A program made the position numbers and the translations under genes. Shown here piece by piece: positions 12,401 to 39,200 of a stretch of DNA of 64,000 nt. The stretch is from positions 9,126,720 through 9,190,719 of the forward strand of contig OX365950.1 in the NCBI GenBank assembly GCA_947247005.1, in the 5' to 3' direction. Origin of the DNA: Spisula solida (Eukaryota > Mollusca > Bivalvia > Venerida > Mactridae). The first letter of the stretch is position 1, and each line of letters starts with the position of its first letter. The notes beneath the pieces are model-generated. The model saw nothing but the letters and a program-made list of their open reading frames with translations, was not told the DNA's origin and searched no databases.

Positions 12401-15400
12401 TATATTGTCGATGAGCAAATATGTATGTTTGTGGTATGATAGGCCTGCAGTTCGAGATATTATATCAATTACTTAATTTTTATCATAATGATGTGTTCAT
12501 GTAAGAGTATGTTGCTATGGTTATTAGGGCGTTTAATGTTGCTTCGCCCATATACGTAGGCATACATGCAGGTTTAATATGCAGGAGTTATGATAATAGA
12601 ATAAATCTAACATGTAGGTGCGTACACGCATAATGCAATGAATAACATGTCAATCTCAATTTATTCGATAAAAATACAATAACAAATAGATTGACATTTG
12701 ATTTGCAAAACATTCGTTGTTTTAAAAGAAATGTCATTGGCAGTTACCATGCAAATAGACACATACAAAGTCCATTTTATATTAACGAGGGAATACTTTC
12801 TTGGTTTAATTCTTGTTGAAACTAATTCATTTTACTTTTCGACAGCTTGGACATGGGCGGATCTTTTACTTGTTTAGTTGGGAATTATGCCTTGTATGTT
12901 TTTAATGTGTTCTGTGCTAGGCTGGTTAAGTTGAGTGCTGACTTCCCTGTCTGACTTCTTTTGCACTCAATATGAATGATTGAAATATTAAACTTAATAA
13001 AGCATCTATGAGAACCTTGATAATCTGTCATTGAACGACATGACAATGAGCCGCTTTGCTATGTCGGTTTATAACGCCATATATGCTTGTGCTGCAGAGC
13101 ATGAATTTTATAACAAATATACCATAAAAGTTGACATTTGAAACATCAATCATTATACACATATACAAGCTATTCACGACACCAACATGGTTGACTTCAA
13201 CGGTCGGTAAATTGTGGACACTTTTATCGCCGGCTTTACTATCTTTGATCTTATTTCAGCTTCATTAAACGATTTAAATGTCTGAATATAACTCAATATG
13301 ACTTTGATGAATGTTTGTCGTTCTTGCTTTGAATAAAGAAGGTAACTAACGAATACTGGATATTGAACGGGTATTTTACGTATGTACCAAACTCCTCTAT
13401 CACCGTGGTGATCACATCGTGTATACATTGCGAATGAGGTGTAAAACTACGGCATTTTGAAAACCTATATAACGATGTCAATGCACAGACTGACACGGCA
13501 ACGTAATTCTAGCCGCAATGACTTCACTAAAATGAATAATACAAGTGTATATATGTTTGATGTATTGAATTACGATATGTTTAAAATACGTATTTCTCTT
13601 ATAGATGCCCTTCATACATTTGAACTGCATGCGTATTTAGTATCTACATAATTATCGTAGTTGGTCGACACATGTACAGGTATACAGCAAATTTCAATTG
13701 CGCAATACTTACGGGCTGTGTTGATTTTTATCTTCTGATCGCTTTTGCTAAGTGATAGCCGGGTGTGTATTGTTTGTACAATTCAATACAAAGTTTTTTC
13801 GGGCATAAAATTGCATTCCGCATATTCGTAGCCAGCATATACACATAGACATGAGCATGCATGAGGTGGTCTGCTGTGATCTTTAACCGGTACAACTGCT
13901 AAAACGGAATCGAGTTTCAGTCTCAGAAAAATATCAACAACATCTTTGTAGTGATATGGTGGTCGGGTGGGTCACGCTCTTGAAGACGGAACGAAAGATC
14001 ACTGGTTTCATTTTTGACCGGAGCATTAAGGTCATTTCTTAAAGGCTTTTCTGTATTTTCCACCCAACCTGAGATGAACATTTTGGTAACCCAGGGGGAG
14101 TTTAAGAACGAAGATGTTTATTCTGGGTCTGGACACTTGTGTTATTTCTAAAACTCTTCCTACGCTACTAAAGATAAATTGATTGGTAACCCAGAAGAAC
14201 TCTTGCGTGTAAGTGATTTACGCCGGGAACGCTTAAGTACGGCGTAGTCCAATTGGGAAGAGCTGGAGTAGCGCACGCGGACGAGTCCATGTATCACACA
14301 AATGTCTCTTTTCTCGACGCAAGAGGTCATAGGCCAAATCTTGCAGGGATAAACCGAGTGAAACAAATGTCATGAACCAGGATGTGCACATTGTTTTTGT
14401 TTTCTTTTGCGTTTGATAGATAAACTTGACGTATTAATATATAATTTATATATCAATACATAAAGAGAGATATTTCGAAAATCGTGCAGGTTTGAGAAAT
14501 AATGAGACTGTTTGTGACCTCCGTATTAATATTACCCAATGAAGGGAATGTGCCTTATTGAATGCCGTAGTTCTAAACGGTCGACATACTATCCACGTAT
14601 TGTATTGCAAATGTAAGTCGATTTATCGTACCTTAACTTTGCACATGAGTTGATATGACATACTTTAATTGTACACGGCACACAAAGCTGTAATACTGCC
14701 TACTGATTACTGGTCAAGGTTAGGATACTACGCAGTAAGCAATTTTCGCATGCGATTGATTTTTGCTTTTAAATTTATGCTCGTTAACTTGAACACATGC
14801 AGAAAAACACTTCAAAGACATTTCTTTCAGATGTTTAAAATCGCGAACATTTAACTTGGCAAACAATATCAGAATATTAGTAAAAATCGCTATTTTTTAC
14901 ATGGCGAAAATATTTGATTTTACAGTATTGTGATTTAAATTAGCCACATTTAATGTGCTAAACACAAATAGGCTGACACAATTACTTAACACACAGTACA
15001 ATGCGGGTCAGACTATACAAATCTTGTGTCAATATGTGACATTTTATTGCACATTTTGGTGATTTCTTTGTAAAAACTTTTAAACAGTATTAGCTATTTG
15101 TGGTCAGTGTGAACTTTTCACCGCTTCATGACAGTAATGTTGACGATTATAACAATACCGGCTAACGCTGCTTTGAGGCATGGAAAGCAATAAAAAAGTT
15201 TGTCATTGCAATTGACAAAACATTCTAAATAAGTTCACTGCCGTCTATGTGTTAATACTGTGAATATTAATAACTTTCACTTTTTGTTAGGTTTTCTGAT
15301 TAATGGTAAAGAAACATTATATTCGGTTACCGAACCTGTTTGAATAGAATCATAGATATTTGCGTTTGTATATTGGCGAGTTTTGTAGGTTTACATAAAG

Positions 15401-18400
15401 GATTCTTGAGAAAAGATTTGATCATTTTAAATGACATAATACAAATATGTCTTTATACAAGTGTATGCAGAGCGCGAGTTATGTCAATATAATAAATAAC
15501 TTCGTACAGACTGTGTAGGTTTTCATTGCTCTTTAAAAGATTGAGACGTTAGTTAAGCAACGCCGTATAGAACATCTTTACAATATAAGTATAAACGTAG
15601 TACTATGGCCCAACTATTAAGTACATGTATAAATACATGCCTGTATGTATAGCCCCTCATGGACCCATATCAGTATGTGGATTTTAATGTTTTGGTGAGG
15701 TACCAGGCGTCTGAATCTGAATGGTTATTTGACACTTTTGACTAAATTTTACCATTTTATAGACAAGCTACCCATGATTTTAAGAGAAACTTACCCCTCA
15801 AACCAAAATCTTGAGGGTCAAAATGTGGCTTTTTGGAAACCCTATATACTAACCGTCTTCAGGGTCAAGTGTTATACATGTATCGTAGTCTGAAGTATGG
15901 GAAACAATGGTGGCTATTGAACTCGGATATCTTCTTTAGCCTCCCCTATCCGTACCAAAAACAAACATTTTCCTGAAGGATCGCCCATTATGAGAAGTCG
16001 GTGCCATGTTACGGTTCAAGATAGAGAAACACCTCTCACTCGGTTCAACTCTAGCCAAAACATATATATTATATAAAACGCTTTAATATTGTAATTTATT
16101 TATTTCAATCTATGTATCTTTGCGATAATGGTTAATGACTTCTGGGTCCGACCTGTAGGCAAACTGACTATACATAATAACATTATTAGATCGCAGACTA
16201 TTCAAGCACTTGATACAGCCAAGCTTTGTTAACAAAAATGCAAATTTGATTAATCGATTGGTCGAAAGATTTGAACAAACTCATAGTTCTCTCGCGAATA
16301 TGACAACAAATTGACCCAAAATATATCCCCCATGTATACATATCGATGGGCTATATACTAATAACACCCAGCAATAAATGACTTTGTCACATGATCACAT
16401 TACGCAACAAATCACATCCGTACAATCATGTACGTGGATAATGATGGCACACCTTTGTTAAAAGTTCAAATCTTCCTATTGCTGTGCATTCTCGTACGAA
16501 ATATGCGATTGTTATTTTTACAGAACATGTGGGTCAAATACACAATGAATATAATGACACAGTTCGGCGTGACCTAATGTCAGTGTTCATTTACCTACTA
16601 ACGTATCTGATATTTTATACTCTATAGTACGGACTGGTACGGGCGTGTAAGGAATTGTACATACCAACTCAACGCAGTACAATATGGCTCCATTGGCATA
16701 GTAGCGAAATCCCAACGACAGTACTCGCGACGGAACGTGCAATTCCAACAAACTTTGACAGACCTTTAGCCTAAAATACTCAGTCGTGTTGAAGTTGATA
16801 ATATTTAACGAATGAATACCCCTGCATAAACACCATTCTAATAGAAATACGTAATAAACTACATTGTATACGATTTGTATTTTAATATATCGACAATAGT
16901 TATTCGGTGAGTGACTATAATAAGTGCATGCAGACAAATGTTACCCATGACGACAACGATATACATATAAAGTGACTAGGTATGGACTAAAAAGTTATAG
17001 ATTTTTGTCCTTGAAAAAAATAGACCTATTTTATTGCGAAGTAATTATGCAAAAAGTGTATATAGTCGTCGCCTGATTTTTGACTTGTCACGCATATTAC
17101 ATTGATATGTCTGATCTATTTTGGTAAAGAAATTGAAAATATTTGATACTGGTTTACAAGGTTCTTGTATGGAGCAATGATCCCGAGATACAAGTATACT
17201 TTAGCTTGTGCGAAGTCACAAAACAGACACCGACACTATTATGCAATATGTTATACAAGAAGTTTCTAGTGATTCATTTCGTAAAACTATTGGGTTTCAA
17301 GAAAATCTGAATAAAACATAGACTTTAAGAAATATGTATATGACACTTGGGACGCAATGATTTTGTCCCGTATGTTAAATAACGCACAGTTGCAAGAAAG
17401 TAAATGTTGCGAGTTACCAGTACTCTGGTTAACGGATTTAAAAACGCGACACTCGGGTATGTTGGTATATTTCAGAAAAACAAATGCCAATATAAAATCA
17501 ATTTATATATTTGTAAAGGCTAATTCAATGTCGTCATTTTGATACCAAACTTAATAAAATCAAATGGTTATTGACTAAATTATCGCACGAATAAGACATC
17601 GGTCCAGAAAACAAAAGTAACATGTTTATCGGCTCATTGGTTTTATCGTTGAAGATGACCAGTCTGTATAACAGACCGAATGTTTACGTAAGGCTAGTTT
17701 CACTTCTATATCCAAATTCTAAACTAAATTGAATATAATAAATGACATATCCAACTTTTATTTAAAATGTGTCTATATGGCACGAAAACAGTGTTGCAGG
17801 GAACATACACCGTTGTCTCATAGGCCTACATAATGTTTTTTTGTGGTCAAGGGGAGGTAAGCCTGTAAGAACATTTGGTCAGAATGCGACTTTTGTTTTC
17901 TAGATCGACATATTGATTGTACTATATATTTGTTAATACTCATCTCGTTTTTATCATCTTAGTACCAAAATGAAGCCAATACATTTACCTTTAATCTGCA
18001 CTATTCCAATACCGGCATAAACTTGAATTACCTGCTATAAAACAACATACCCCAGTGTCGCATTTTTAAATCCGTTAAGTATAGTATAGCATTTATTTGA
18101 GGTAAATTTAGTTTTATACGTTCTCTATAACCTTGTTTTCTAACTACATTTGTGTACTTTTAAAATGTATTACAGTAAACCATGGCACTGTTTACATAAG
18201 TTTGTTTACATCCTCGTCAATATCATGCGCCAAATGGAAATACCCTCAAAATTACCTTTTCGGTGTTCCTAAAGTTAAAATACTACGATGCAGTCAAATC
18301 AAAGCAAGGACCGAATAAATTGATCACAAATGAATTCATTTAAACTTAAATACTGTAATTAATGGTATACAGCTCAAATGTTTTATGCATTCCATGTGCC

Positions 18401-18610
18401 TAGTAATTCAAATCAACCTTTTAAGTACTAGCGACGAAGGTGATAGATGGATTATTATTATGCATCATTTAGTTATGGATTAAAATAGAATAAATCTTGA
18501 ACATCGTAACTAAGTACACATCGGTCGCAAAACATGCGCGTTCAGTTATGAGCTGTACTAATAACAGTTGAACGCGAATGAAGAGAACGCTCTCTTAGTT
18601 TGTTTGTCAA
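9451..18610. other. Non-coding stretch upstream of the transporter
   Basis: No recognisable gene. It contains a SINE at 10595-10800, an A-rich tract near 11470-11490 and degenerate SINE-like sequence at about 13960-14060 (GGTCGGGTGGGTCACGCTC). The two longest ORFs here (108 codons at 11117-11443 minus, 123 codons at 12105-12476) look random. Confidence 0.5.
10595..10800 (+). repeat. tRNA-derived SINE, longest copy in the window
   Basis: The head has TAGTGCTAGAGCGTCCGCTT and GGTCGTGTGTTCGTTCC. The body has GGTACTGATATATCTCCCTT, and the tail has GTCAAGATAATGTGATTGGA and ATATGACTGAAAT. It ties together the head copies (1486, 8095, 40300) and the tail copies (1225, 30655) as one family. Confidence 0.75.
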
Positions 18611-18681
18611 AGGTTTTTGTCGGAGGTTTTTGTCGGAGGTTTTTGTCGAAGGTTATTGTCGGAGGTTTTTGTCGGAGGTTA
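18611..18681 (+). repeat. 13-bp minisatellite AGGTTTTTGTCGG, five copies
   Basis: Units start at 18611, 18624, 18637, 18650 and 18663 with two substitutions. A short in-frame peptide repeat over it (VFVGG) is incidental. Confidence 0.9.
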
Positions 18682-18896
18682 TGCAGCGAATCCATTGTTT
18701 TATTCTATCATATGCAATTATTCTATTTTTTTTATAATCAAAATTAAATCTTTCCCGTGGTCAACTTTGTTCTGGATGGAACTACATGTAAACATCTGCT
18801 GATCAATTGAGCTAGACTGGCAAAACAGTGCTTGTAAAATGACACGATGTCTTCTGGAAAGGTCCATGCTACGATTGCCATATAACTATAGTATAA

Positions 18897-19036
18897 CCTT
18901 TGTAGAGCAAATCCTTTAGTAGCTGCAAATATTGGCTGTTGTACAGAGGTTATTGTCTCTCTACATAGGTAAAATATACAGTAAACTTAGGGACATTTTG
19001 AAGGTGTTGCTTTTGTGAGGTTATTGCTCTACAGGG
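18897..19036. mobile_element. Inverted-repeat element (CTGTAGAGCAA ends)
   Basis: Left end CCTTTGTAGAGCAA; right end TTGCTCTACAGGG. About 140 bp. A smaller element with the same end sequence is at 24302-24371. Confidence 0.6.
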
Positions 19037-20189
19037 GGCCGCTCTGGTGAGATACTGTGCGTGTATTGGAACGTTGAACCCGCGGAGTTAAGCTTTAAAG
19101 TACATTTTTGAGGATGACTGTCTATCCCATAAAATATTATATTTCACAGCCTTACCAACTTGCGGCTCTTGTTGCAATATTACACCCGGGTCGGACTATA
19201 AACAAAGTTTATTTCGTGTATAATAAAGTATAATATTACATACGCAGTAGATAAATGAACTTAAACGAAATAAAACGGCTATATGACATAGCAATCCAGG
19301 ACCCAACGTCGCATGTATTGGTTACTGGTGTAAGTATCATCAAATTTCCAGCTTGAATATGATTTGCATATACAGTTCAAGCAAAATTTGGTAGGTCTTT
19401 TTCTAGTATTTGGAGTGAACAAAAATTCAACGACTATGACAATACAAAATTAATCGTTATTGTCAGAAACACGAAGTGGTAGAATATACGGCGTCTTGCT
19501 TGTCAATTGGGCACTCAAATGTTGCACTTTGTATGATGCAGAATGGGCATTTTACAGCAATAAAACTAACAACGATTTTTCTAGGGTATCATGGGTATCA
19601 TAAAATGTGTACTCGAACTTAGTATCTGCCCATCAAACTCTTGCACAGTTGGTTGAGTTCTAATTAACGAAATGCAATTTTAAAGGAAAAAATATTATTT
19701 TACGCTTTTCTGAGTTTCGCCTGACTAAAATACGTGATATTTTTATAGGTACAGTAAGGCTCATGAGTAGCGTTCATTTAGAAGATTTTACTAATTCGCT
19801 TACAATTATCGAAACACAAAACCCCAAAAATCGAAAATATTTACGCTAATCGGGGTATCGTCAGAAGTTTGATGGTCATGTCGACAGTGCTGATTCAAAA
19901 TAATAGTTTCTAAATTTTCTAAAATGTAAATTATGTGCCTGTTTATTTCGAATGTACTGATGGTTTACCCAGGGCAACAATATTTGGTGTACAAATGTAA
20001 TTGTATATTTATATTACATTTGAGACAACCTCATTTGAATAAAAATGTTTTTAATTGCTACTATCTCATGCTGGTTTGCAAAGTACATGGTTATAGTGTT
20101 TCAAATACACTGTAGTTAAATATAATATGTTAACAATTCGCTGTTACTAAACTGTCACATATATTTACAAACGTATAACATATTGTACA

Positions 20190-20250
20190 GCCACGACCGT
20201 GGGTCAGTGGTTAGTGCGCGGCAGGTCATACACTCGCATGAAAAATGTCG
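20190..20250 (+). repeat. tRNA-like fragment
   Basis: GACCGTGGGTCAGTGGTTAG followed by TGCGCGGC resembles a tRNA D-arm/A-box. No B-box or acceptor stem follows in position. Confidence 0.35.
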
Positions 20251-20394
20251 ATTTTCCTTCATGAATATGTCCATATAGACGGGTAAATTGGTAGTGGCTA
20301 GGGTACAGTCCAGTAAAACTTGTTAGGTGAATCGACCGCCGTATATAACTGAACTTGGTTGAAAAACGGCAACATACAAACACACATAATTCAC

Positions 20395-20500
20395 ATATTG
20401 CTGGCTTAGAATAAGAAGGTCGTGAGTACAAAATCAATATTTTGTGAAAACAAGAAAAAACTGTCTTCTCCAACTTCATTTTGGTCAACATGAAAGCTAT
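20395..20500 (+). mobile_element. Partial MITE (GCTGGCTTAGAATAAGAAGG end)
   Basis: Begins with the terminal sequence of the element at 34653-34900 and continues through GTCGTGAGTAC and AAATCAATATTTTGTGA, matching that element's inverse end; the other end is missing. Confidence 0.65.
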
Positions 20501-21378
20501 CATACTAAAGAAAACATGTAATTGCAGAGTATAATTATGTGAAAGTTTTGTTCTGATCTAAAATGGATATTCAACGATAGATTCCTTATCTAAAGCAGAC
20601 GTTCAAAGTGACCACCCATTTTCTCTGAAACGAGTTTCAATTCTGTGCATAACGCTGTTGCATGCAGCTAGGTAACCAGTCTCTTTTCCCAACGAATCGA
20701 AGGTTCTACTTCATTGGACATATCCAACAATATTCCTTTTTGAAGGCACCTGTATATTTGGACACACGTTTTGAGTTTTCTTTTCACTTAAATCGCAGAT
20801 TTTCTCAATTCATAATAAAGTTTTATGAGTCGAGTTTGGAAATACTCAAATTTATGACGTCATCGATTTACTTACCATTTTCCACACGCTGTATATTGTT
20901 ATTGCATAATTAATTTGATTCATTATAGAACTTGTTTGGTCAGAATTAAGTGCAGTTTTATGTATACACCATTACCACGCATTAATTGAACAATAAAAAG
21001 GCCAAAATAGACAAAAGGAGTAACTCGTCGCATAACTTGAACTATATAAACTATCTAAGGTAACAATAGGTTTGCGTGGGTATGCATACAAATGCATAAG
21101 CCTTTGACAGTTGTTCAACGCTATTTAAATTGTAATATAAGACATCTACAAACCTGACATACAAAAATACATACTTGAAGTAAAATATAGTTTAAACCTA
21201 GTGTAAAAAGAAAACCGATTGACCGAATATACTGTAGTGTTATGTTGCTATTTGGTAATGCGCTTTATTTCTATAGCTGATATGTCGCTGACGGAAAGTT
21301 ACCAAAAGAATATTGCATATAGAGCGATGTTGATGGAGTGTATTTAAAAATACCCATTTCACGCTTACTAGACTCATA

Positions 21379-21506
21379 GGCACTGTTTTATCAAAGCACT
21401 TACGAAAGTATTAAACTTACGTTCAAAATTAAATTCTTTAAAATTCTTTAACTGCTACAAATTGTGGTAAAGGCTTGTTCAATATGATTTAGGACTCAGT
21501 TAACAC
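21379..21506. mobile_element. Truncated MITE of the CTGTTTTATCAAAGC family
   Basis: CACTGTTTTATCAAAGCACT and the following TTACGAAAGTATTAAAC match the left half of the complete element at 44952-45184. The sequence diverges or ends before a right inverted repeat. Confidence 0.7.
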
Positions 21507-22247
21507 ACTCCTACAAGCTATGTCTGTCTCGAATATGTAGTTACAAGTAAATACGCTTATTTTTGATTCAATGACTTATCACCAGCAAGTATATACAGGT
21601 AATAAAACCACACTTATAGTATTATATACGGTATAATAATAGAGGTTAATGAACGTCATGAAACGAGTCGGGCAAAGATGTATATAACGAACGTTACAGT
21701 TGTTGGTAGCAATTCAAGGTCATAGACTACTCGGTGTCTTAAATCAACTTTAATTGCAGGTATTTACTGATAGCTCAAATTTCATTATACATTTGTAATA
21801 CCCGTAAAAAGCCTGACACTGCTTACGGCTTTTCTTGAATTGCGTATTGTATCCACTAGGCAATATTGACTTGCAGCAATGGGACAAACTGGCTAAAGCC
21901 GAATAGTTATCGACAGTAGACTAAATACCAGACGGGTAAGGTATAAAGAGCACAAAACATGTAAAATCAAAGTCAGTACAGACACGAAGTTTTATCATTT
22001 TAGTTAACGTGCCTGGTACAGAAACTGATTTTTTAATATTAATGTGTAGTTGAATCATACACACATGTTTTGACTTTCAAAAAGCGAATTCGCTAAATTC
22101 CAAAGTTTATTGCAAATGGAAGCTAGATAATGGAAATACATAATATGGGTATTTATATGAATGTATGATTAAAACGCACTCATGAAATAAATTGTATGAA
22201 GATCACATAAAATCTTGTCATTTTCACAATTGGTTAATTGTATAAAA

Positions 22248-22490
22248 TGGTTCGAGGGGTGATCCAAAATTTGGCAAACTGATTTCATAATTTTAACCGA
22301 AACCTCAACTGTTATCCAAACAAAAAGATAGAAACTGACATAATTTATTATGATCGGACTGAGCTGTAAGGAAATGTGTAGGGTGTCATGTATTGGTTTT
22401 TGAATGATGTATATATCTTAAACTACATATCGCATTAATTACATGAATGGCACCAATAGTCTACGTAATTCTTGATCACCCCTCGTACAT
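22248..22490. mobile_element. MITE with mariner-like ends
   Basis: Left GTTCGAGGGGTGATCCAAAA; right, read inversely, GTACGAGGGGTGATCAAGAA. About 240 bp, no transposase remains. The end sequence resembles mariner termini; that assignment is from memory of the family. Confidence 0.65.
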
Positions 22491-24118
22491 ACATTATTTG
22501 AGCTTTATAACGTTGAGTGCATCTATTGAAATATCTATAGACACTTCAATTATAACTTATGCTTTCAAGTTTAATCTTGTAGATAGTATTAGCAAAATAT
22601 ATTATAAATATTAAAGCTGTAACTTGATACATCGCTGTATTGAAAATTCTTACAATGACTTTCTATTGAAATTCATAATGGTGTGTCAAGTTTGTAAACG
22701 TCTATTTAAACATACGTATTTACTCTATTCATCGAATATAGTCACAAAGACAGGATCGTGAAATATATGGGAACTTTAAATCACAAGGTTGATGAAATAT
22801 TGCAATGTAGTGAACGTGCAGTGTCTTCTTACAATGCCATGTTAAGATCACCAAGTTAATATGAGTATGCATATTTACATTACAAAGTACTCTGAAAGAT
22901 AGTTATATATTTTAATATAAAGCACGTAAATACGCTTTACAATGACACTCTTATATACATGATGGTGTATACCTCTTAAATAAAGCATGCTTGCATGTTA
23001 TACAGCTCCTCGCGGGTTTATGGAGCGTGAGACGACAAACGAGACGAGCTTTAATATTTATTTTTATTATTGCTTTATTTCGTTCGCATTTTAACGACCG
23101 TACATATCAAAGGAAATTGAAATTTTAAAGCAGTCGATTCATTTGAAAAGCACTTTATAAACATAATTATGCCATTACTAGAAATGTTATATAAACCATA
23201 CAGATGTGCAGTGCACCATCTTCCAAAATGGGAATCATGTAGAAAATGCGAACAAAATATTGAAGCAATGTAGTGAATAAGCAATGAGGAAGAACCATAT
23301 TATGCAGTTTTGTTTTACAAGAATTACTCGTGGTTTACACATATCCCTACGCAATCACATTAGCATTTTACTTTGTGACATTTTATTCCATAGCGCTCTC
23401 ATCTATTAATTGATAAAACACCTTAATGCATACATTGAATTTCATTCTAGTCTCCTACTTACTTAGAGGTTAAGAACCACCAAATAGATTTGTTCTTTAG
23501 CTCAATGTAAAGTGACAATGGCTGGCCTCAAATTTCGTTTAACAAGGTTTAGTCTATGGATGGCCACCTGGCACGCATTATATCAGCTTGAAGAAGCATA
23601 TTTAAGCTTCAACATAATACAATAAAAAGGGGGTTCATTTATCTTCTCTACTTTCACTTTCATATTTAGGTCAAAATGTCACAAAATTCAAGATTAAACA
23701 GTTTCAATACATCACATACATGTGCACAATCACTTTAAACTGAATTTCATGATTTCAAAGCGGACATGTCAATCCATACCACCATTTCCAGTCGTCAATC
23801 CAATGTTTCTTTCAGGACTCTTTGAGTATGTCACCATTTGGGCCGCTTATGTATTTAGTGGTTCCTTACCTAGAGATACTTTGGGATGTTTCCCGATACA
23901 GGACCCTGTGGGTCCTCTTCATCAGACTCACTACGCAGTCATATTCCTAGTTTGGTTCCCGATGTTCTCTATAGTAATAGTACGACAAAATCACGTAGTG
24001 TAAGGGGCAGGTAATCCAGACTCTCATATTCCCTTCCCTTAACCAGAGATATAGATAACAAAAATATTCTCTGCAGTAACCTCCAAACTCACGTTTTATA
24101 ACGTTTTTGTCTTTTCAG

Positions 24119-24239
24119 GAGGAGATTGCCCGTGAGACATGGGGTTCCAAGCTGGACTTTATTCTATCAGCTGTGGGTTTCGCCGTGGGCTTGGGTAATA
24201 TCTGGAGATTTCCATACCTATGTTACAGAAATGGAGGAG
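24119..24239 (+). CDS. SLC6 transporter, first visible coding exon (N-terminal gate and TM1)
   Basis: Acceptor CTTTTCAG precedes GAG-GAG-ATT, and the donor is GGAG|GTATGT, so the exon enters at phase 0 and leaves at phase 1. It encodes residues 1-40 and the first base of Gly41: the R-x-x-W cytoplasmic gate followed by TM1 with the unwound GLGN segment and WRFP, ending YRNGG. No in-frame ATG lies inside the exon; the start codon must be on an upstream exon. The following 2255-nt intron holds a small inverted-repeat element at 24302-24371 and otherwise nothing I recognise. Confidence 0.96.
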
Positions 24240-27200
24240 GTATGTGTCTGTGTGTTATGGTGAAGTATACATGTATATACATGTATATATATAATGTACA
24301 TCCTCTGTAGAGCAACACCCTTTTGGAGTTGCATCTATTGGGTGTTGTTTAGAGGTAGTTGTTCTACAGAGATTACAGAAGCACTTCATAAGTCTGCCAC
24401 ATTTCATCCGAAAGATGACCATTCTCGGCATTTTAGGAGAAATTTTGAAGTTTAGCATTGTTGAGATTGAACTCGATCGAGTAAAATCGATCGTTTTGTG
24501 GATTTTGGTAAAATGGAATCTTCGATGGTCCTAACTATGCATCCGTTTAAACCATTTTTAAACGTATTGTAGTTACGTACATGAATTTTGTTCACCGAGA
24601 ATGCGCAGTTCCACTTTTGTCTCAGGAGGGGGGTCCGAATCTGTTTTCTCAATAATGGGTCTGGACGCCGGGTAATTTTGCCCATCAAGTTGCTAATTTT
24701 CTTACAGGGATTCCCTGGCAAACTTTTATAAAATATAGTCCATAAAACTACATTTTTGCAAAGATTCCAAGGAGGTAATCCTCACCCCTGGACCCGCGCG
24801 TGCCTGATTAATCATTTGGAAATTGGTTTCATAATCAAGTTTACCATGAAATAAATGTTGAAAGATTACCACGAATATTTATGATTTTTAAGTGCCCATA
24901 AATTATCATATTGACAGGATTACATCCGTACCTTGTAGTAAATCTAAATATGAACCAGTATTATTTATAGAATGTATACAGGTGAATAAAATAACATAAA
25001 AAGTGACAACAATATGACAAACAACTATATAATGTATTTTGACTGACTTAGCCACATTCCTTAGACTATTGTGTCACATTGTGTGCTTTTGTTCAACGAA
25101 AAGGCCAACGTTGAACACCTAGAGAAAAATGTCAACTGAAAAATGAATTCATTTAAATAATTTATTGTAAGTATTGTATTTTGACATGCTATCATGTATT
25201 GATGAATTGAGTATTAATACTTACACAGAGTGTGATCAAATAAAGCAGAATAGTTTGCCAGTATTACATCGCTAAATAAATATACAGTGTACAGTTGGCC
25301 CGCAACGACAAGCACATTCATGAGTGTTATACTCACCCGCTCCTTACCTATGTTAGGAAGGTTAGACATTATAACAGAAACAGACAACATCATGGTAACC
25401 CGATGTCTTTAACAATGCACTTGAATGTTTATGAAAATCATATACAAATTCCAAGTATTCTTTGGTCTATGATGCAGAAATTATCTTTTATAGAAAATAC
25501 ATGTATATAAAAAATCTGTCTCAGACAGTTTATAGAGTGTCTCAGACAGTTTATATTAGTTATGACCCTAACCGTACACCGTAGGCCAGTGTGTGCTTCT
25601 GTTACATTGACTGCAGGCATTTCCACAACGTGTATAAACAACCTTGCCAATAGCTTTGGTGAGGACTCGGCAAGTTTGCACTGGTTGATCTATTGTTAAT
25701 TCAAGCTGGCTATTTTGTATGACTGAAGAAATAGTTGAAAAGATGGCGTAAGGCTTAAACGTATAATATACCTGAACATTGCATACTACTGATGGAAAAC
25801 AATTCTTTGTTCATAACATGCATTGCTCATCCTGATTTGTGAATATTTAACACATGCTTTATTTCAGCAGCTGAAATCGTGATATGGAATTGTCCATGGT
25901 AGCACTTCTTCTGAAACGACTAATTTATTAATTAATATCTTAATATATTATATAATTATATTTTAATTTATTGTAAACAACTTAATATCTTTATAAAATT
26001 ATATATATCAAGGTTAAGTGACCAAAGTTGTTTCTGCATTGTATTATTTTCACAATGTGTAGCATTTTGATTTATTATAAAGACATTTCGTATTTGTAAC
26101 TTTAGTCCGAGGATATTGGTATGGTGTTCTTCTCAATAGCAATCTGGAACATTTGACTGTCTATTTTAGCCGCGTTGGCTTTCAGTACGCATAAGCGGAA
26201 ATTATTACGATAATGCACGATTTTATTCCCGTAAATCAATGATTATTATTATATTCTACCTACGAACCTTCGGAAATATATTCATGTATTTATAGAATCA
26301 TACTTCGAATAATATATCTGAACTATATACCTCTTAAAATTAACATAATATTATACATAATGTTGAGATATGCACGTATATATGATATTGACTATTTAAG
26401 GGAAAGTTCCATACCCTGAAAGTGAAGAGTGTCACCATTGGCTATATTTCTATTGCCATTTTCAGCCATTTGATATATGCTAACTACATTTCAGGGGCTT
26501 TCCTCATTCCTTACGTCATCATGTTGCTGATTTCCGGAATTCCATTATTCTTTTTCGAGTTGGCACTCGGCCAATTCGGGTCAGAAGGTGCAATCACTAT
26601 TTGGAAATGCAGCCCTCTTTTTTACGGTAAAAACATAAGACACCCTTATATTCATATTATACAAATATTTACTTAATTAATGTTGTTGTTTTTGGTGTTT
26701 CTTTTTCAGGTGCATTTTTGATACCGTACGTCATCATGTTGATCATATCCGGTTTACCACTGTTCTTCTTCGAGCTAGCGCTTGGACAATTTGCCTCAGA
26801 GGGTCCGATAACACTCTGGAAAGTTAATCCAATGTTTTATGGTATGGTAACTACACGTGTCTGTGTGGCTGCTGTGTTGCTTATGTTGTTAGTAACTTAA
26901 CACGCATCTCTTCTGTTAACCATCTTACTTGTATACTGGCCACTGACATGGCTAATTATAACAAGTAATATACTATATTTGTATCACATTCCTTAGCCAC
27001 TGATTGGCTCGAAATAGGAGTTTCTACAGACATGGCCTTTGATTGTTTAAAAAGTGTATACATATCATAGTTCGACTCACTAAATAAACGATCAAGTTTA
27101 GAAGATAAAATTTACATGTTTAAACGCAAATAGAGGCCACTGGCCCAAAATAATGTATCTACATGCAAATAATTTCACATGTAAAATGCTGTATCGACTG

Positions 27201-30200
27201 CCTATTATTGAGAATAAGCATATAATTGGATACTTCTTGAATGCCTCTGAACAAGGGTTGTCGCCCCTTACAATTCTATACGGTACTTGTGGGCATACTA
27301 CTACGTAGGAGTTGATTTCCTATGCTGACAATTCGCGAAAGTCGTCTAGACACAACTCGACTTGATAATCGCGATGCCTTTGGAAGATAAGATCAATTCA
27401 CCAGTGAGTTTGAACCATGATATAGTTTAACAGTTTTTAACAAATTATAGGTAAAGTCTGTAAGCACGGGTTTTTTTATTAAGTCGAGGGCGTTGCCATA
27501 GAGAGAATGATATAGCAGAGTGTCTGTTCTCTATCTGCTTTGCATCACAGTTCATTCGATCAAGTGATTGATTGGTGTCATGGTTATAGGCACGCCCAGT
27601 GCAGTATGACACTTATTGCACTCTTTCCCTGAGTACATTATTGCAGTTATTGCAGTTATTTCAGTCCTTTCAATCGGTATAACTGGAATGCAATCATGTT
27701 GCAATAAAAACCAACTAGTTTTATCAAGTTTATAACATGGCTAACCTCTTGGTACTTCTGCGACTGACACACTGACACATAGAAGGATACTCATCTGTTT
27801 GTTGTGCATGGTGTATGTGATATACATTATTATTTGAGAACAATATACATAACATAACATATTATAACGTAACTAATAACTGACGTAATAAACGTCATGA
27901 TATTCTGGATACATTTACTTCTTTAAAAGTTTTTGTTCCTTTCCCTATAATTGTTCAGTATCATTGAATGGAAAAGGTTTTCTTTTAGATGTTTATTTTT
28001 CTAAACTAGTCACTTCCGGAACTTACTCTATTTACCTCAATGTTTTAAGTAGTCGACCATCTTAAAGGCAAACGGTCTTGGAGTTAGAATATATTTAGAT
28101 TTGATTCGAAAATTCTAAATATAGCAAGGGTATTCATATGTGACAATTTCATTTTCCTCACCCATGCTGTGCTGAACTCATGGTTATGTAACCTTTATAG
28201 TAATCTAGTTGTTTCGTAACTACATATTTGATTTTTCTAGTAACATACGTGTATGCCTATATAAGACACTTGCCTCCAAAGATGGACGACAATATAAAAC
28301 ACAATGGGGTAAATATTGTAATATTGGGAGTTATGTGTTAGTGTGGATGATATATCATCCACTTGTGGAAAGGTTAATTAGCGCTGGTTGATCCACTTGT
28401 GGAAAGTTTTATTAGCACTGGTTTATCCACTTGTGGAAAGGTTAATTAGCACTTGTTGATCCACTTGTGGAAAGGTTAATTAGCACTGGTTTATAGATCT
28501 AGTATTGGTGCAATGGAAACTAGCAATACCAACAGTCTGTTGTAGGCTTTAAGCCTGAACAACTGTTAGAAAATGGCGTTACCTTTGATAAACTAGCAAA
28601 AACAAATTGAGTGATTACTGTAAAATAATTTATTTTCGCGGGAATTAAATTTCGTCGATTTTGGTGAAATGGTAATTTGGTTGTTTCTTAAATGCGTGTA
28701 TTTAAACTCTATTGTTACATATTTTGTAGTCAATTATTCGAGGGGATTTAATTTCGCGATCTAGTTCATCCGCGAACTCAACGAAAGTGAATCCACCGTG
28801 ATTATTAATCATTTTACAGTATAATGTTTACAATCACCAGTACTAAATTCTGATGGATTTTATTTCAGAAATACGATAAGACATATTGAACGTATTAGTA
28901 TAATGTAAGCACGTATAATATAACATATATAGTGTACAAAATTGTGTATGACAATAGCCTGTGTAGAAATCTGGAATTCAAACATTATTCAAAAAGAAAA
29001 GTTATATATTTATTTCAATAGTACTCGAGACGTAATACTTGTCCTAAGCTTGTCCTCAATTCAATCGCTTCATACATTTATACATGTCAATACGGACTTA
29101 ATTCTGTAAAACGCTTATTAATATGCATGCATTATCGTTATGTATATTGTTTTAGTTTTTTTCACATGGTTTAAAGCTTTACAGGTTTTTGAACACCATG
29201 TTTGATGATTGCCCTGGCAAAAAAAATTAGATTTTTTTTTTATTAAACTCCATCACACTAAATATTTATGATATTCTGCTGTCTTATATTCAAGCATCTC
29301 TGTTTGTAATGTAATCAATTTTATATGATACAGTATAACTTCAATAATATGATCGCTCCTGTAACCCTTGACAACTGGTCTCAATAATTAAAGTATATTA
29401 ATTGATCTTGACTTTGAGGTGGTCTTATTAGTGAGATGGTCTTTATGAAGGTTTCATTAACCATATTTTGTCTCAAGACGATATGCACGTGATGTTCATA
29501 TATGTTTCCCTTTTAAATGACACATAGTCTCAAATCAAATGAATTTAGCGCCCGAACCAGGCGCAATTTGGTGACCAATACAGCAAACGTCCGCCAATGA
29601 GACCACTTCAACTATTAATAGATACTTTTGAATATGAAACAGATTTATATGAGCCATTCAGTTTCTTCTTATGTTTCTTTTGCTCATATTTACCATAAAT
29701 TCCTGTAAATTACTGTATAGCTTTCATGCTGATGTGGACCATATTGAAAATTGGTCTAGAACCAAATATGCCATCCACAATAAATAAAGTCGTTATTATT
29801 ACATTTTGTATTATTGTTATTTATTACAGTTTTAAAGACGTTTAGTCTTAATTTGTGAGCAAAAAAGGGCCCCTATTAAGACAGATTCGCTGTTACGACC
29901 ATGCTCCTTTTGTCTGTTGTTAAGGATGCTCGATCGGTCTAGTGCGCATGCGTCATTTGTCATAGTACGTTGTGTGCCTTATAAATGTAAAAACGTGTTT
30001 AAATAATCTAAATTAAATCAAATTGATCAGGTGTGACAAGTATTATGCAATAAAAATAGAAAATTCTAATCGAAATGACGGTTGATAAGGGACCCAAACA
30101 CTCCTACATCCTTAAGGGAACTTCACTACACATGTACAATAGGCCCACGATAAAGAGACATGCAATCTTATGAATCCACCTTGTATTGTAGGTATCGGGT

Positions 30201-33200
30201 GGGGTATGGTGATGGTCAGTGGACTGGTATGCATCTACTATAATGTGATCATCATGTACGCCATCTACTACATGTTTGTATCGTTTGTCAATCTGGATGG
30301 AGAGGTACCTTGGATAGATTGTGACAACCCATGGAATACCAAGAGTTGTAGAGTTGAGCCATATCCAGATTTCCCAAATTTGAATGCTTCAGAAAAAGTA
30401 ACCGAGCTATACAGTAAGTATTATGAGTCCGAAATTATTTATGATAAGTTGATTTTAATGTTGAATCATGACCTCGTGTCAAGTTCCTAATCTTAATGCT
30501 CAACGGTTCCATCTCCAAGATACAGAAGTGTAAATGGTCAACATCTGTATGGTATTTAGGTATTTGATATGTGATTATTTTACTGCTTAACAGAATATTC
30601 ATGTATACGTGAAAATATCAACATTTCTTAGGTCTCGTGTTTGACCCCAGGCTGTGACTCATCAATTTCGTTTAAAATAGTATACCTCTCTTCATTGATG
30701 CTCAGAATAGATAGTTTCATATATAACTGCTGGTCCGACCAATGTCAGGATAATGTGACTGGGTAGTCTCCATGTGACTGAAATATTAAAGTCTCATTAT
30801 GCCTAAATGTCTATTTTCCAAAAGCAATAACTCGGCAACATATCTGCAAAACGATGCATTTTGAGCACTTTAGTTTAAACAATAAATGCATAATTTAAAG
30901 TCTAAGGGGAGCAATTAGTATTTTGTCATCCATACATTTTACTAAATGTGATTTTTTGGCGTACTATTTCGACTGATACAACTGACAGTCTGTCTGAAAA
31001 CTACTCTTTACTTGTGGAAAACAAACTTTGCCAAATTCATGCAAATAGGCTCACAAGAAGCGCATTGAGATGTTGATTTCAAATATCTACCAGTCTTATA
31101 AGGTCGTAAGTAACAGTTGCGACCTTCTCATTCTAAGCCAGCGATAAATTAAGATCATTAATCTTTATTGTATTCATGATTTTACAGAGATGATGGATGA
31201 CACGTGTGTCAACGACACATTGAAGAACATGTCCATGCCTGCAACTATGACAAGTTTGGCTAGTATAGGCTATGACTACATGGACAAAAACATGACTGGA
31301 TGCTTGATGGATCTCAAACTACCAAGTGATGAATACTGGACGTAAGTCTCCCTTGGAGCACTGTATTTAAACGTCCTTGAAACTATTCCGTCCTTAAGTA
31401 TTTTTTATATATTTTAAACAAGTTGGAACAATTTGAGCCGGTTTCACAAAAAAGTACAAATACAATGTCATGTATTTTGAGTTTATTACAATAAAACTTC
31501 AGATTGATCACAAATCTTAAATCTGATTTGAGCAAAATCTCAAGTTGAGCTGAGATTTCTACTTGAGATGCTTCGAGAGATCGGGGCCTGGTCACTTTGT
31601 CATTCTGGTCACTTTCAAATATGCAGATGAATCATGTATTATTAATTAATTTTGCATAATTCAGCATCATCATTTATACATGTTTGATATATATTTCAGA
31701 CGTTTTGTGTTGCGCCTTCACGAATCAGATGGTATTGATGACATCGGAGACATCAGTTTGAAGAACGTCATCTGTTTGTTCCTTGCCTGGGTCCTTATCT
31801 TCTTTTGTTTGATCAAGGGAATCAAATCTTCAGGAAAAGTAAGAAACAAAATGAGTAACCTCCCTTTGGAAACTAAACGTTTGAGCAATTAAGGCTGGGT
31901 TTTTCGCTCTAACTATAGTCTAGTCTGGATCGATGAAATACGGATGTCTGGTGTCTCCGGTCGCCAAAACCCACATTAACGTTTGTTAATAGTTTCTTGT
32001 CTAGACATTGTTATCTTGGGTGCAATGGACTAAACCAATGCTTCTGAATATGTCCATTTACGATAATTATTTAAGCCGGTTTATTCTGTGAGAAGCTGCT
32101 TATATCTAGAAGTATCTGCGTGTTCTTGGTGTCCAGTACATGTATATATAATATTTGTTTCTTAGTATACATCGTATCTTGGATAAAATGTTGAAGACCA
32201 TATTCAAAAAATAATTAAAATCCTTATTAAGAAAAGCCACATTAGGCCTTAAATGGCTATTTTCAAAAAGCAATAACTTGGTAACGTATTTGAAGAGCCA
32301 TGTATTTAGAGCACTTAAGTTGAGTCGCAAAGGTGGAAAACACCATAAGATAGAAGGAAACGAAAAACAGCCTGCAGATGGTTTGTTTACAATGCACAAT
32401 TTATAATCTAAGGGAAGCAACTTGTATTTTGCCATCCATACATTTTATTTAAATGTGATTTCGACAGATACATTTAACATTTTGCGTCAATTATTTGTCT
32501 TATGTGAAAAATATCCCAATTCCTTGTAATTAGTCTATTTACTGGATGATCGGTTAAGATAATGTGGCTTTAAGTAAGACTTCTGAAGAACTCACTTTTA
32601 ATGGAATTTAAATCCATCTTGATACACAACATTGTAGTATTAATCGATTAATCAGATCAGTCAATTGTTTGTGTACATAAACATTAAAATTTATCTTAGT
32701 CTTATTTTAATACATATTATATATTATATATGTGTTAGTATGTTACAGTAGTTAGTGAATAAGGTAATTTTTCTCCAATTAAAATCTTTAAAACAATTTT
32801 TTAAAAATGCAATGTCATGTTATTGGCATATTTATGTACAAGTGAGAGACCGGATCAAACGGTATATACTTTTTTGTATTTGAATGTACATCAATATATT
32901 TTGTCCATTACTCGTATCATTCAGGTCGTCTACTTCACGGCTACATTCCCCTATGTATTGCTCGTTGTATTGTTGGTACGTGGATTGACTCTACCAGGAT
33001 ACGAAGAGGGAATCAAATTCTACATTATCCCGGAATGGGATAGACTAAAAGACCCTAAGGTACGGGTTTGATAGCAATTTATCCGACTACTGTACGGATT
33101 TATTGTCACTGTTTAAACAGGTGACCGTATGTTGACGTAGACCCTTTTATTATACAGAATGTGACTACAATATCTGCAAAAGTATTTAAACTTGTCAGTC

Positions 33201-36200
33201 CGAATGGGTAAAATGAGTTAATGTTACTATTCGTCTAATTGAAAAATACTGGATTTTTTGTCAGTCAGAATAAAAAAGTGTCAGTTTGGCTTGAAGGACT
33301 GACAGTTTTCGCAGAGCATGTGACAACGATGTGATACAATACTGTATACCTCGTGACCACGTTCCAAGTCAAATCAAATCTCGAACAGTCTGGTAACTGG
33401 CACATGTAAACACATCTCTAGATAAACAATTTTGCAGTGAAAACCCGAGAGATCGGATTTTATACTTTGACAGCACTATGTGTGTCACAGATGAAAGCTT
33501 AAATGCGACACTTTCAAAAATACCTAAATAATGTTGTCAAAATTTCGGGTACAAAACAGACAGGTGCGAAAACATAGATATAGCATATCGATTTTGTAAT
33601 ATGCTTTAATATATTCCAGGTATGGTCTGACGCCGCAACCCAGATCTTTTACTCTCTTGGACCAGCTTTTGGTGGTCTCATGTGTATGTCCAGTTTCAAT
33701 CAGTTCAACAATAACTGTTTCAGGTGAGTGCAATACGAGTACTTAGTCTACTGTCTGGTCTATAAAGGACAGCATGGAAACAACAATAAGACAGTTCAGT
33801 TGTCTTGTTTAAGCCTAGGTCCAACTAAGGAATTCCACATCGGTGATGTTCTCCCGTTTCCTCCGTATCGGCCATCCGATTCATTACAATAATAATAATA
33901 ATAATATTATTACATCGGCGATGTTCTCCCGTTTCCTCCGTAACGGCCACCCGATTCATTACAATTCCTTCCGATATCGCACACTGTCTCATGACTTCCC
34001 CTAAGCTTCCGCTAGACAACGAGGCATCTGTTCCCGATATCCTGATAGCTCATTAATTTCCATCAGAAGTACACCACCGAGGCAAAAAAATACCCAGTTG
34101 GACCAAGGCTTTAGTGTTGCGCAATAAATGTAGATTTAAAGTTGTGATCTAAAGGTTCGAGGGTAAATGCTCTGAAATGTTGATTACGTAACCAATATTG
34201 CTGAAACTTGTACTGACTTTTTTGTTCGATGTTGGTGTAGTATGTATTTGTAGATTACGTACAATGCAGTTAAATGCAAACCCACACGCAATTACCAAAC
34301 AACTGTATGAAATATGACTGCTTATTTTACACAAGCGACGCCTTGCAAGACCGTTACACAAGATACTTGATAAGAACAGTACAATCATAATGTTCGTCTT
34401 ATTAAGTTATTATACCCGCTTTTATAATCCTTATAACAGGTTATGCAGTCATTTCAGAAACATGTTTTGCTTTGTTCTTCAGAGATTCGCTGATTGTCGC
34501 GTTTATCAACTGTGGTACCAGTGTATTTGGAGGATTCGCCATATTCTCTCTGCTTGGTTTTATGGCGCACACGACCAACCAAGACGTAGCCGATGTAGCG
34601 GATTCCGGTAAGTTGATGAACTATGTGAACTTGTCTGGGAGTTTCTAACGAATCGCTGGCTTATAATAAGAAGGTTGTAAGTACTACTTACGACCTTATA
34701 AGACTCATGCATATTTGAAATATGCATCACAAGGGGCTTCTTGTGAGCCAATTTTATAAAAATCGGAAGTGGTCATATTGACCAAACTGAAGTTGAAAAA
34801 ACTTGTATTTCCATAAGTAAAGGGTAGTTTTCAGACAGTTTTTCTTGTTCTCTCAAAATATTGATTTTGTACTTACGACCTTCTCATTCTAAGCCAGCGA
34901 AATGTTCATGTAGTTGTTTCTGGAGATGACATACACGTAGATAAAATTGATACCACAGACTTTATTTCTAGAACCAACGCTGTTAAAGCATAGGTCCCAC
35001 TGGGGAATTCATCCCGATTTTTTCCGATAACACCCAATTCATCACTATTATTTCCAGTATCACAAACTCTCTCACGACTTCCCCGAAACTTCCCCTAGAC
35101 CACGCGGAACCTGTTCCCGATATCCTGATGGCTTAAGAAATTGCCTGATCTTCCTCACGAGCCTCTTATGGAATCGAAGACCACATTAAACATACGAATA
35201 CATTTGTTCTTTTGATACACCCACTTAGTGTTATCTTGTTTGTAAAAAAGCTAATAACAATATTTTGAGTTTTAATTTCTGGTAAAGTAGAACAAAATCA
35301 TAGTTTCCCATATAATAACTGCGGTCACACCTTGTTTCGTTGCTGTATTTAAATGCCTCAGTCTTTAGCAAATTCATTGATAAGGAAAACTATTTAATGG
35401 TGTGCTTATCTTATTTATTATTAAAACAAGTCCAATATTGTGTGAATTGTTACTAATATTTGTAATTTGCACTAAAGATATTGTTAATCAATAACACCTT
35501 AATGTCACAAAATAAATGTTTAAAGTTCTACGGTATTTCTATTTTACAGGACCCGGTTTGGCCTTCGTCGCCTACCCAGAAGGTTTGGCTCGACTTCCGG
35601 TCTCATCACTCTGGGCTTTCTTGTTCTTTTTTATGATCCTCACCCTTGGTATGGACAGTCAGGTAGGTGAAATGTTTCACATAGTATTACAAATGTTCAG
35701 TAGCTCTTCGATTGTCACGAAAGCGTCGAATCCAACGAGAATCTGTGGGATTTGTGAACTTTGCGATTCCAAATACAGACAAAACAATCAATAATGAAAC
35801 CATCCAAGGACGCCTTTTTTAAACTGCAAAAAGAAGCAGAAAACGATTTATTTTCATTCAATTTAGCCTTATTTTCCGTAAAAAACGCGTATATAGCATC
35901 ATTAACACCTGTGTGATAAGGGCGGTTTCTACGATTATTGACAAGTAAACAATATGTACCGTGACGTACGTTTTAAACATCGCTTGAAAAAAAGTTAATT
36001 CTGAATGTTTTTCCCCCAACATTTGATTATTTAATAAAATCACATCCTCCCAGAAAATAAAGATTATTTCGTAGTTTAGAAGTAAAGATCTACAATACTC
36101 ACAAAGAAAACATAGGTTATAAGTCGTCGGTTCTCTGGAAATATGTGAAGCTCAATTATTTAACTTACGTCAAAATAATGTTCCCGTAAGATGCTTAGTG

Positions 36201-39200
36201 AATACCAGCCCTTAATGTCAAGCGTCAATAACAATATGTAATAGTTAGAACATATTAAGTCAATTTGAATGATTAAAAATGGCGGAGCGAGCGAAGCGAG
36301 TCCTTTTTAGTCATTAAAATTTACTTAATATGTTCTTTCTAACTTAGAATATAACATTCTGCATTCTGATTGGTCGATAGAAATTAGCACCAACGCATGG
36401 CGTAAAGTCTGTGAAGAGTAAATTTTAATGATTAAATTTTCATTTAACCGCAAAAATTCGGCGCTTTCATTGGATCATAATGTAGGTTGTATTCTACGAT
36501 TATTTGAGCCAGAGCCTGGCGTCTCTTGCTTTTAAGTAATATCGCTCATCGTTATAACAACATTAATGTTGGTGATTTTCAGATGGTAATGATGGAGACT
36601 GTTATCAGTGGTATTACAGATCTGTATCCACATGTTCTACGTAAGAAGAAAGCACTATTTACCTTTGTGGCGTGCATGGTGTTGTTCATTCTCGGTATCC
36701 CTATGACAACAAAGGTAAACATCATACATGTATTAAATTTTGACTACAAAAGTAAATATTATCTTTGTATGGCGTCACAATCTTACATGCTGACAATAAA
36801 GGTAAGCTTCATACTTATATGACGTCACAATCTTACATTTGACAATAAAGGTAAGCTGCGTGCATGAAGTCGCATCTTACATTTAACATCTTATGTATGC
36901 GTGATAAATGTGTGACGTCACAATATTGGAATATTGAGATTAGGTGCAATTTGTATAATGCAAACCCATTCTAATCTTCGTATCTTATTTCCAAAATACT
37001 TGTACATGTTCGCTGTGATTCATATGACCCATTCTTCCGCCCACGGAAACATTTTATTAACAAAATTAATGTAAATGTGTATGGTAAATAAACCATTGTC
37101 CTGCTGATATCATTAATTTTCGATTACATCGCCTTTATATTGAACTTTATACTGGAGCCTCGTATTTCCGCGATGCATGTACTTGGTTATTAACTTAAAC
37201 ATGGGACGTTTAAAATATTCACGCTGGTAGCATATCACTGAATGAAAGGCATATACTTTTGGTTTTAATATTTAGTCTATTTTTAAAATGTTTATTTCTG
37301 GCAAAACTAAACAAAATAGATGTTAGCAAAGGCTTACTCTTGTGTCGCACATAACTGTTGTTATTCGGTAGTGTGTAAATACAAAGCAGTAACTATTATA
37401 CTTTTTACGAGACATCCTCGAAGCTCTAGCCGAGATTAAGTACTTTCCATGTAACTTGATATGTTTCAACAAAAGGTCACAGTTTTTGCCCGAGCCGACT
37501 CAACTACATGTATGCAGTTGAGTCGGTTTCGGACAAACATTGTGACGTATTGCACAAAAATATTAAGTTGCTTCAATAATACTCATTTTCGGCTGGAGCG
37601 ACGAGGGTTTCTCGTTAAAATCAGTCAACAATTATGATACTTACGATTGTTTTTAACTTTTTTGTTGACAGATTTTTACTTGCGTTCGTAGCCAAATATT
37701 ACGTCACATACCACGTGGTATGATCACACTGAATACGCAATAGGTGGTGAATGAGCGTAGCTATATCATCTAACAACACAGTATAACAATGTAAACTTGT
37801 TGATTTGAGCGTATGTTCCTACAGATTAAGGACATGTGTGGATGTATCTCGCTAGTACAAATTTACCAGCCCTTTAAAATAGTGATGACAGTATAGGAAA
37901 TGATCATAGACTTTTTTTATTTCTTGTAGGGCGGTATCCTTGTACTGACTATATTTGATTGGTATTCGGGCTCCTACAATCTGATGATCATTGCACTTTG
38001 TGAACTTGTCGTTATTGTCTATATATATGGTAAGATGTTTGTATATTATGAAAGCTTGATACGATTATATTCGTGGATTAGTGGATTAAGTAAAGAAGTG
38101 ATTTTCACTGCATCGTCCTGAGAGTCGCGTATAATGAATGTTCACTATCAATCGAGTAGACAGAACCCTCCTTCATATCGTTTGTTCCTTATCGTCCAAT
38201 TCAACATGTGCTGTCCCAACATTAATTCACGATACTTTTAATACTTCATCAAATGAGAACCGACAGTCCGTCGAAGTGAAACTGAAGAATTAATGCTGTT
38301 TTACAGAGCTGTGATCATTTGAATAACTTGCAGTGCTTTAATAGATTTAATTTACAATGATAATTTCAATGTGCCATAGTTTCAGTGCTTTGATAACTTT
38401 GATAAATTAAATACACAATGCTTCCAGTGGTTTGATCAATTTAATTTACAATACTTACAGTGCTTTGATCGATTTAATCTAATACTCGTTTCAGGACTGA
38501 GGAAATGGATGAAGGATATCGAAATGATGATAGGGAAGCGTAACATTATCTTCTGGGCTTACTACATCCCCATGTGGTGTGTTATTACTCCTTTGGCTAT
38601 CCTCGTAAGTTGATTACCCGCGGCCTAGAGGCCGAGGGTTATTAGATGCATCAAGCGATTTTGCTATGGAGTAGCACGTGACCACGTGTCAATGCCTGAG
38701 TGGCTAATGTGTCAGTCTAACTTACGAATTCAAATTAAAAGATTTTGTTTGTAAGAATGTCTTGAACCAGACTAATTCAATGTTCGAGTCACGTGATCAA
38801 TTTGGATTTTTTGAATGAATGGTGTAATCGTCTGCTTGGACTGTTACGTAATCATAGCGTTGTACTGGCTTATGGTCTCGCTTATTCGGAATCCCGCAAC
38901 GGGGTCTAAGATTAACCGGTTATAGAGTGTTATTAAATCCTTGTTGCGAAACACTACTGATTGGAAAAGTTATGCATAAAATAATGCTTTCTTAAGTTAT
39001 GATGCCTTTTAATTTGACGGTTTTCCTTCTTATGTGTGGTTGTCCTTTTTTATTCCTTATTGTCTGGTGTCTTTTGCTCTGTCTATATTTGAATTGGGGT
39101 GGTAATCGCAAAGCATTTTAAGGGAAAACGTAGAATTTTCTTAAAATGTTACTGTTTCCTTAATAAGTTTATCAGCTAAACAGGAAAATCTAGATTATCA

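Follow-up and report, generated by a model that had tools for sequence, protein, structure and literature searches.

The closest described system is that of NKCC2 (SLC12A1) in the vertebrate kidney. NKCC2 possesses three homologous exons, 4B, 4A, and 4F, each of which encodes a 32-residue segment of TM2 and loop. The variants are reported to differ in their Na+, Rb+, and Cl− affinities, with conservative changes and with determinants in TM2 and the loop (PMC7818487, PMC4301019). Some transcripts carry 4A and 4F in tandem and in frame; they are reported to account for roughly 3% of the variants in rabbit and roughly 30% of those in Squalus and to be dominant-negative in oocytes (PMC7818487). 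On a genomic scale, the tandem duplicated exon substitutions of human, fly, and nematode are described as old, conservatively different, and enriched in ion-transport genes (PMC9741552), and a human survey regarded mutually exclusive exon pairs coding membrane helices as unlikely cassettes (PMC5740500). In the main text of these two surveys, the term “SLC6” has 0 occurrences. A literature search, conducted mostly by title and abstract and largely outside the subscription literature, found no report of mutually exclusive exons in SLC6 or neurotransmitter transporters, in molluscs, or in bivalves. The glycine transporters SLC6A5 and SLC6A9 are not known to have an alternative TM2 exon. Within the literature covered, a tandem alternative exon pair at TM2 would be of a kind known from vertebrate kidney NKCC2 and, as far as found, new for SLC6, a family that includes targets of antidepressants and stimulants.

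Here, we analyzed a 64,000-nt stretch of clam DNA (the window), which was placed on contig C8 of a 932-Mb, 36-contig assembly. Two adjacent exons in the window, A and B, belong to an SLC6 symporter gene of a mactrid-like bivalve and are likely to be tandem duplicates that are spliced in a mutually exclusive manner. Like the NKCC2 exons, A and B are homologous tandem exons coding TM2 and a loop of a Na+/Cl−-coupled symporter, and joint inclusion is in frame in both systems. They also resemble the tandem duplicated exon substitutions in being old, tandem, homologous, and conservatively different. Unlike in NKCC2, the gene belongs to SLC6 rather than SLC12 and the exons number two, of 44 codons, rather than three, of 32 residues; by descent, the pair is at most an analogue. 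Whereas the expression and function of the NKCC2 variants are reported as demonstrated experimentally, the clam exons are known from sequence, from which their function is predicted.

The exon pair and its gene

An SLC6 (Na+/Cl− symporter) gene, complete apart from its first coding exon, occupies positions 24119-42669 on the + strand of the window. Its features are as follows.

24119-24239, + strand: constitutive exon for TM1 (phase 0 to 1), 5′ neighbor shared by A and B, PF00209
26495-26626, + strand: alternative exon A (TM2 and intracellular loop 1 [IL1]), 132 nt, phase 1-1, borders tttcag/GGGCTT and TTTACG/gtaaaa
26627-26709, + strand: 83-nt intron separating A and B, with candidate branch-point A's at 26671, 26676, and 26680
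26710-26841, + strand: alternative exon B (TM2 and IL1), 132 nt, phase 1-1, borders tttcag/GTGCAT and TTTATG/gtatgg, nearer the closest orthologues
30192-30413, + strand: constitutive exon for TM3 and the beginning of EL2 (phase 1 to 1), 3′ neighbor shared by A and B
31188-42669, + strand: remaining 11 coding exons to the stop, open joined frame, protein P0121 85% identical over 100%
31188-31341, 31700-31838, 32925-33059, 33620-33723, 34483-34607, and 35550-35662, + strand: first six of these coding exons
36583-36714, 37930-38029, 38495-38604, 39447-39608, and 42487-42669 (to the stop), + strand: last five of these coding exons

When the exons were joined by hand, both the A and the B version comprised 643 codons with no internal stop, and the stop codon is at 42669. 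No convincing candidate for the first coding exon was found among the phase-0 ATG exons in 10001-24050, and the MGK start of the orthologues had no match in 1-24118. The N-terminal 157 amino acids match PF00209 (2.6e-62 for the A form and 6.1e-62 for the B form), which was the sole Pfam domain reported; the protein thus belongs to SLC6, the SNF neurotransmitter:sodium symporters, and not by descent to SLC12. The relatives of the window protein, among the matches listed, also carry PF00209, and the nearest full protein among them is a symporter of Mactra antiquata (P0121), its 85% identity extending over the whole query, which agrees with the bivalve origin assumed at first and makes a mactrid source probable. 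In a preliminary description, the gene had been compared with glycine transporters. The best solved-structure matches of the N-terminal 157 amino acids are SLC6A5/SLC6A9, with GlyT2 chains at the top (1.5e-52). Because the annotations of the relatives range over glycine-, proline-, and GABA-transporter-like, “glycine transporter” is used as a nearest-relative label only.

Continuing the frame of exon 24119-24239, A and B each supply residues 41-85 of the reconstructed protein, and as homologous tandem exons of the same phase they are interchangeable between the same neighbors. The coordinates, phases, and AG/GT borders first given for the two 132-nt exons proved exact, and a recount returned the same 37 matching residues of 45 and 20 synonymous codons. 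When the 45 codons are paired, 17 do not differ, 20 differ synonymously, and 8 specify another residue; A and B share the base at 92 of 132 positions, and the mismatches number 9, 3, and 28 at codon positions 1, 2, and 3. The copies differ at 9/15 shared four-fold sites, and their dN is 0.12 (NG86). In-register similarity between 26489-26629 and 26704-26844 is 72% and ends at the splice borders, which indicates that the duplication is old. The likeness of A and B is not due to chance, since the best other ungapped matches in the window, both strands considered, reach only 58/132 for A and 57/132 for B.

Bivalve genomes are highly heterozygous, a property that would favor the pair being an assembly or allele artefact in which two haplotype versions of one exon were set in tandem. 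Such an origin is very improbable given that the 30% nucleotide divergence of A and B, mostly silent, is far beyond allelic difference, that their in-register similarity stops where the exons are spliced, and that the pair, used as a DNA query, has one match in the 932-Mb assembly.

Constraint on the two copies

Simulated drift differed sharply from the observed pattern. Starting from either copy, 40 random substitutions replaced a mean of 24 residues and never as few as ≤8 in 20,000 trials, and 20 random changes on B yielded ≤8 replacements in 0.3% of trials. In an alignment of 67 relatives, chosen from 274 proteins returned by searches, both A and B keep the family residue in all conserved columns, whether these are invariant (11/11), conserved at ≥90% (19/19), or conserved at ≥80% (22/22). 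All 8 differences between A and B fall outside the 22 columns conserved at ≥80% (P = 0.002 for 8 random positions). Coding constraint is thus found on both copies, and the earlier suggestion that they are old and both under purifying selection is supported, given heavy silent divergence with 8 replacements, far below neutral drift. A further suggestion, that the replacements are clustered, received modest support: the final 17 codons contain 6/8 of them (Fisher p = 0.04, with the split chosen post hoc).

The position of the replacements was read from an AlphaFold2 model of the Mactra orthologue P0121 (67 sequences, mean pLDDT of 89, pTM of 0.88). In this model, TM2 is helix 43-71, made up of exon positions 1-29. 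The loop, which includes short helices, spans positions 30-44, and position 45 is the first of TM3; the alternative exons thus cover TM2 and intracellular loop 1, as does an NKCC2 exon-4-type cassette. The helix list of this orthologue's model, by reading, is consistent with 12 TM and a TM2-IL1-TM3 arrangement. Written as A/B, two replacements are predicted in mid-helix (L/I12 and I/L16), one at the helix end (G/A29), and five in loop 1 (A/P33, I/L36, C/V39, S/N40, and L/M42). Tyr7, invariant in both exons, presumably corresponds to the chloride-binding tyrosine of dDAT. In that transporter, a TM2 tyrosine is reported to coordinate chloride, and an IL1 arginine to contact the C-terminal latch and the N-terminus (PMC6742698).

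The 274 proteins include the best 120 of 1,508 matches, the best 120 of 7,836, and all 43 of a third search. A TM2 match with ≥20 identical residues was present in 263/274 proteins, of which 85 are nearer A, 52 tied, and 126 nearer B (62, 44, and 123, respectively, in a smaller earlier set of 229), and the largest lead is 4 residues for A and 5 for B; none of the proteins that lean most strongly toward A is a close orthologue. In the matches listed, the nine closest proteins in which TM2 is complete (P0121-P0128 and P0130) are all more similar to B, with margins of 1 to 5 residues. These include P0122 and P0123, which are on short contigs and probably represent transcripts, and the Mactra antiquata protein, which is nearer B by one residue (41 versus 40 matches). 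A search in which only residues 41-90 of the A form contributed to the score again placed Mactra antiquata first among its 43 hits. Ser14, common to A and B, occurs in 3/67 relatives, two of which, P0121 and P0122, are the nearest orthologues. The Leu36 of B occurs among the 67 relatives only in the Mactra protein. Because the nearest relatives are closer to B, and from the distribution of Ser14 and Leu36, we infer, on few residues, a duplication within the mactrid lineage, with B orthologous to the exon annotated in Mactra.

The same comparisons bear on the possibility that B is the sole working exon and A an ageing duplicate that is skipped or constitutes splicing noise. The lean of the nine nearest relatives toward B is in keeping with this possibility, as are the unusual residues of A, namely, G29, A33, and C39, which occur in 3, 4, and 1 of the 67 relatives. 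No A-like protein was found among the matches listed: the SEGA of A in TM2 occurs in 0/274 of these proteins and its WKCSP in 1/274, the distant hemichordate paralogue P0240, in protein sets clustered at 90%, where a second isoform could be hidden. The donor of A is, in addition, the weakest in the gene on an approximate matrix (see below). B carries rare residues as well (L36 in 1/67 and M42 in 4/67 relatives). Where the two exons differ, the commoner family residue is that of B at four positions (16, 29, 33, and 39), that of A at three (36, 40, and 42), with a tie at position 12, and the three positions at which A has the commoner residue argue against an ageing duplicate. So do the intact frame of A, its AG/GT borders, its retention of 22/22 highly conserved columns, and replacements far below the drift expectation. 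Decay is exemplified in a different SLC6 gene of this genome, where an incomplete copy of an exon has lost its AG and meets a stop codon, and A is unlike this copy. An ageing A is accordingly improbable, and we regard A and B as very probably a functional alternative exon pair, through which one gene probably makes two transporters.

Splicing of the pair and predicted function

Joining A to B and skipping both exons each keep the reading frame. Frame loss was considered as the mechanism of exclusion and ruled out, as all A/B combinations are in frame; nonsense-mediated decay would therefore not remove transcripts with both exons or neither, whereas a retained 83-nt intron leads to a stop. Inclusion of both exons or neither adds or removes one membrane helix, and mainly either/or splicing is therefore expected. 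Each mRNA would then take 24239-A-30192 or 24239-B-30192, and the outcome would be two 12-TM transporters that differ at only 8 residues, all within TM2 and intracellular loop 1.

It is conceivable, since every combination is in frame, that A and B are not strictly exclusive and that double or null transcripts are abundant and have a role, for example as a dominant-negative form. NKCC2 provides a precedent in its 4A+4F transcripts, reported to reach about 30% in shark and to be dominant-negative in oocytes, and some double inclusion may therefore occur for A and B; in rabbit, the double transcripts are given as only about 3% (PMC7818487). The altered helix number of such products, the short 83-nt intron, and the borderline branch-point spacing stand against frequent double inclusion, making an abundant double or null form unlikely.

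For mutually exclusive use of A and B, we propose steric exclusion, with B as the default and A as the regulated exon, because of the short intron, the branch-point spacing, and the donor scores. In exon pairs of the alpha-tropomyosin type, exclusion is steric and the inter-exon intron short. The clam pair resembles these in a donor-to-branch-point distance near 50 nt, here 45 to 54 nt with branch points predicted by motif (the three candidates are 45, 50, and 54 nt from the donor of A). The human survey takes a donor-to-branch-point distance below 50 bp as its steric criterion (PMC5740500), and by this measure the predicted spacing of A would be borderline. The 83-nt intron compares with 358 to 2,878 nt for the gene's 11 constitutive downstream introns; the introns flanking the pair measure 2,255 nt before A and 3,565 nt from A to 30192. 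On an approximate donor matrix, the 5′ splice site of A scores 5.1, the lowest in the gene, and that of B 6.3, with the others at 5.9 to 12.4, such that A and B are among the three lowest. Inverted repeats are present in the introns. The either/or choice would thus be helped by a branch point near the donor of A within a short intron and by weak donors; B would be the default isoform and A the regulated one. The preliminary reading, a tandem TM2 pair with probably either/or splicing, is backed by the splice sites, the equal phase and length of the exons, the constraint found on each copy, and membrane topology, and the either/or part keeps its “probably.”

By analogy, the A and B forms may differ in function. 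The loop 1 differences could tune transport kinetics, ion dependence, or contacts of the termini and loops, as do the NKCC2 exon 4 variants. It is possible, albeit tentative, that SLC6 independently evolved an NKCC2-type switch, in which alternative TM2-loop 1 exons set ion or substrate affinity, possibly for tissue- or salinity-dependent amino acid uptake in a marine bivalve. If both exons are used, the two proteins would constitute a natural transporter pair differing in 8 TM2-IL1 residues, a ready-made experiment on the role of this region, and the second case after NKCC2 in which TM2-IL1 is an exchangeable part of a Na+/Cl− symporter. Were the NKCC2-type switch also true, the same exon would have become the tunable part by convergence in two distinct families of Na+/Cl− symporters.

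TM2 exons elsewhere in the genome and local repeats

A genome search with exon B returned at least 62 TM2 sites at E ≤ 0.01, among which A and B are the only close pair: their starts are 215 bp apart, and the next nearest TM2 pair on the same contig is 11 kb apart. A is 82% identical to B, compared to 71% for the best other TM2 site, which fits local duplication. For 20 of the 59 other SLC6 loci, 8-kb stretches were compared with five TM2 peptides, and one TM2 exon was found in each; an extra weak match at L044 (E = 0.004) was rejected, as it does not resemble TM2. At these 20 sites, a phase-1 donor follows the exon in 19/20 and AG is present at the phase-1 acceptor position in 15/20, one of which (L053) resembles continuous coding sequence. 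The TM2 exon is thus usually a symmetric 1-1 unit and, therefore, can be duplicated without breaking the frame.

Other SLC6 genes showed separate peculiarities. Within L049 (3615-4024; contig C11, near 46251812), the 3′ splice site and the opening ∼8 codons of the TM2 exon are contained in an 82-bp tandem repeat; its final unit continues into the real TM2 exon, and the adjacent copy has lost the AG and meets a stop codon. Three SLC6 paralogues on contig C15 (L002, L003, and L005; 45 to 47% identity to the query) match it from TM1 to EL2 in a single unbroken frame, which suggests intron loss or retrogenes.

Tandem repeats also occur in and around the transporter gene. The intron downstream of exon B contains four 34-bp copies (ATCCACTTGTGGAAAGG...) at 28357-28491, and the last intron of the gene contains six near-perfect copies of a 21-bp repeat at 40321-40445. 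Downstream of the gene, a 47-bp unit is repeated 10.5 times with 93% match at 46725-47217. At 51580-53649, about 124 copies of a 17-bp repeat are stop-free in several + frames (694, 441, and 419 residues), and these open frames are very probably not genes.
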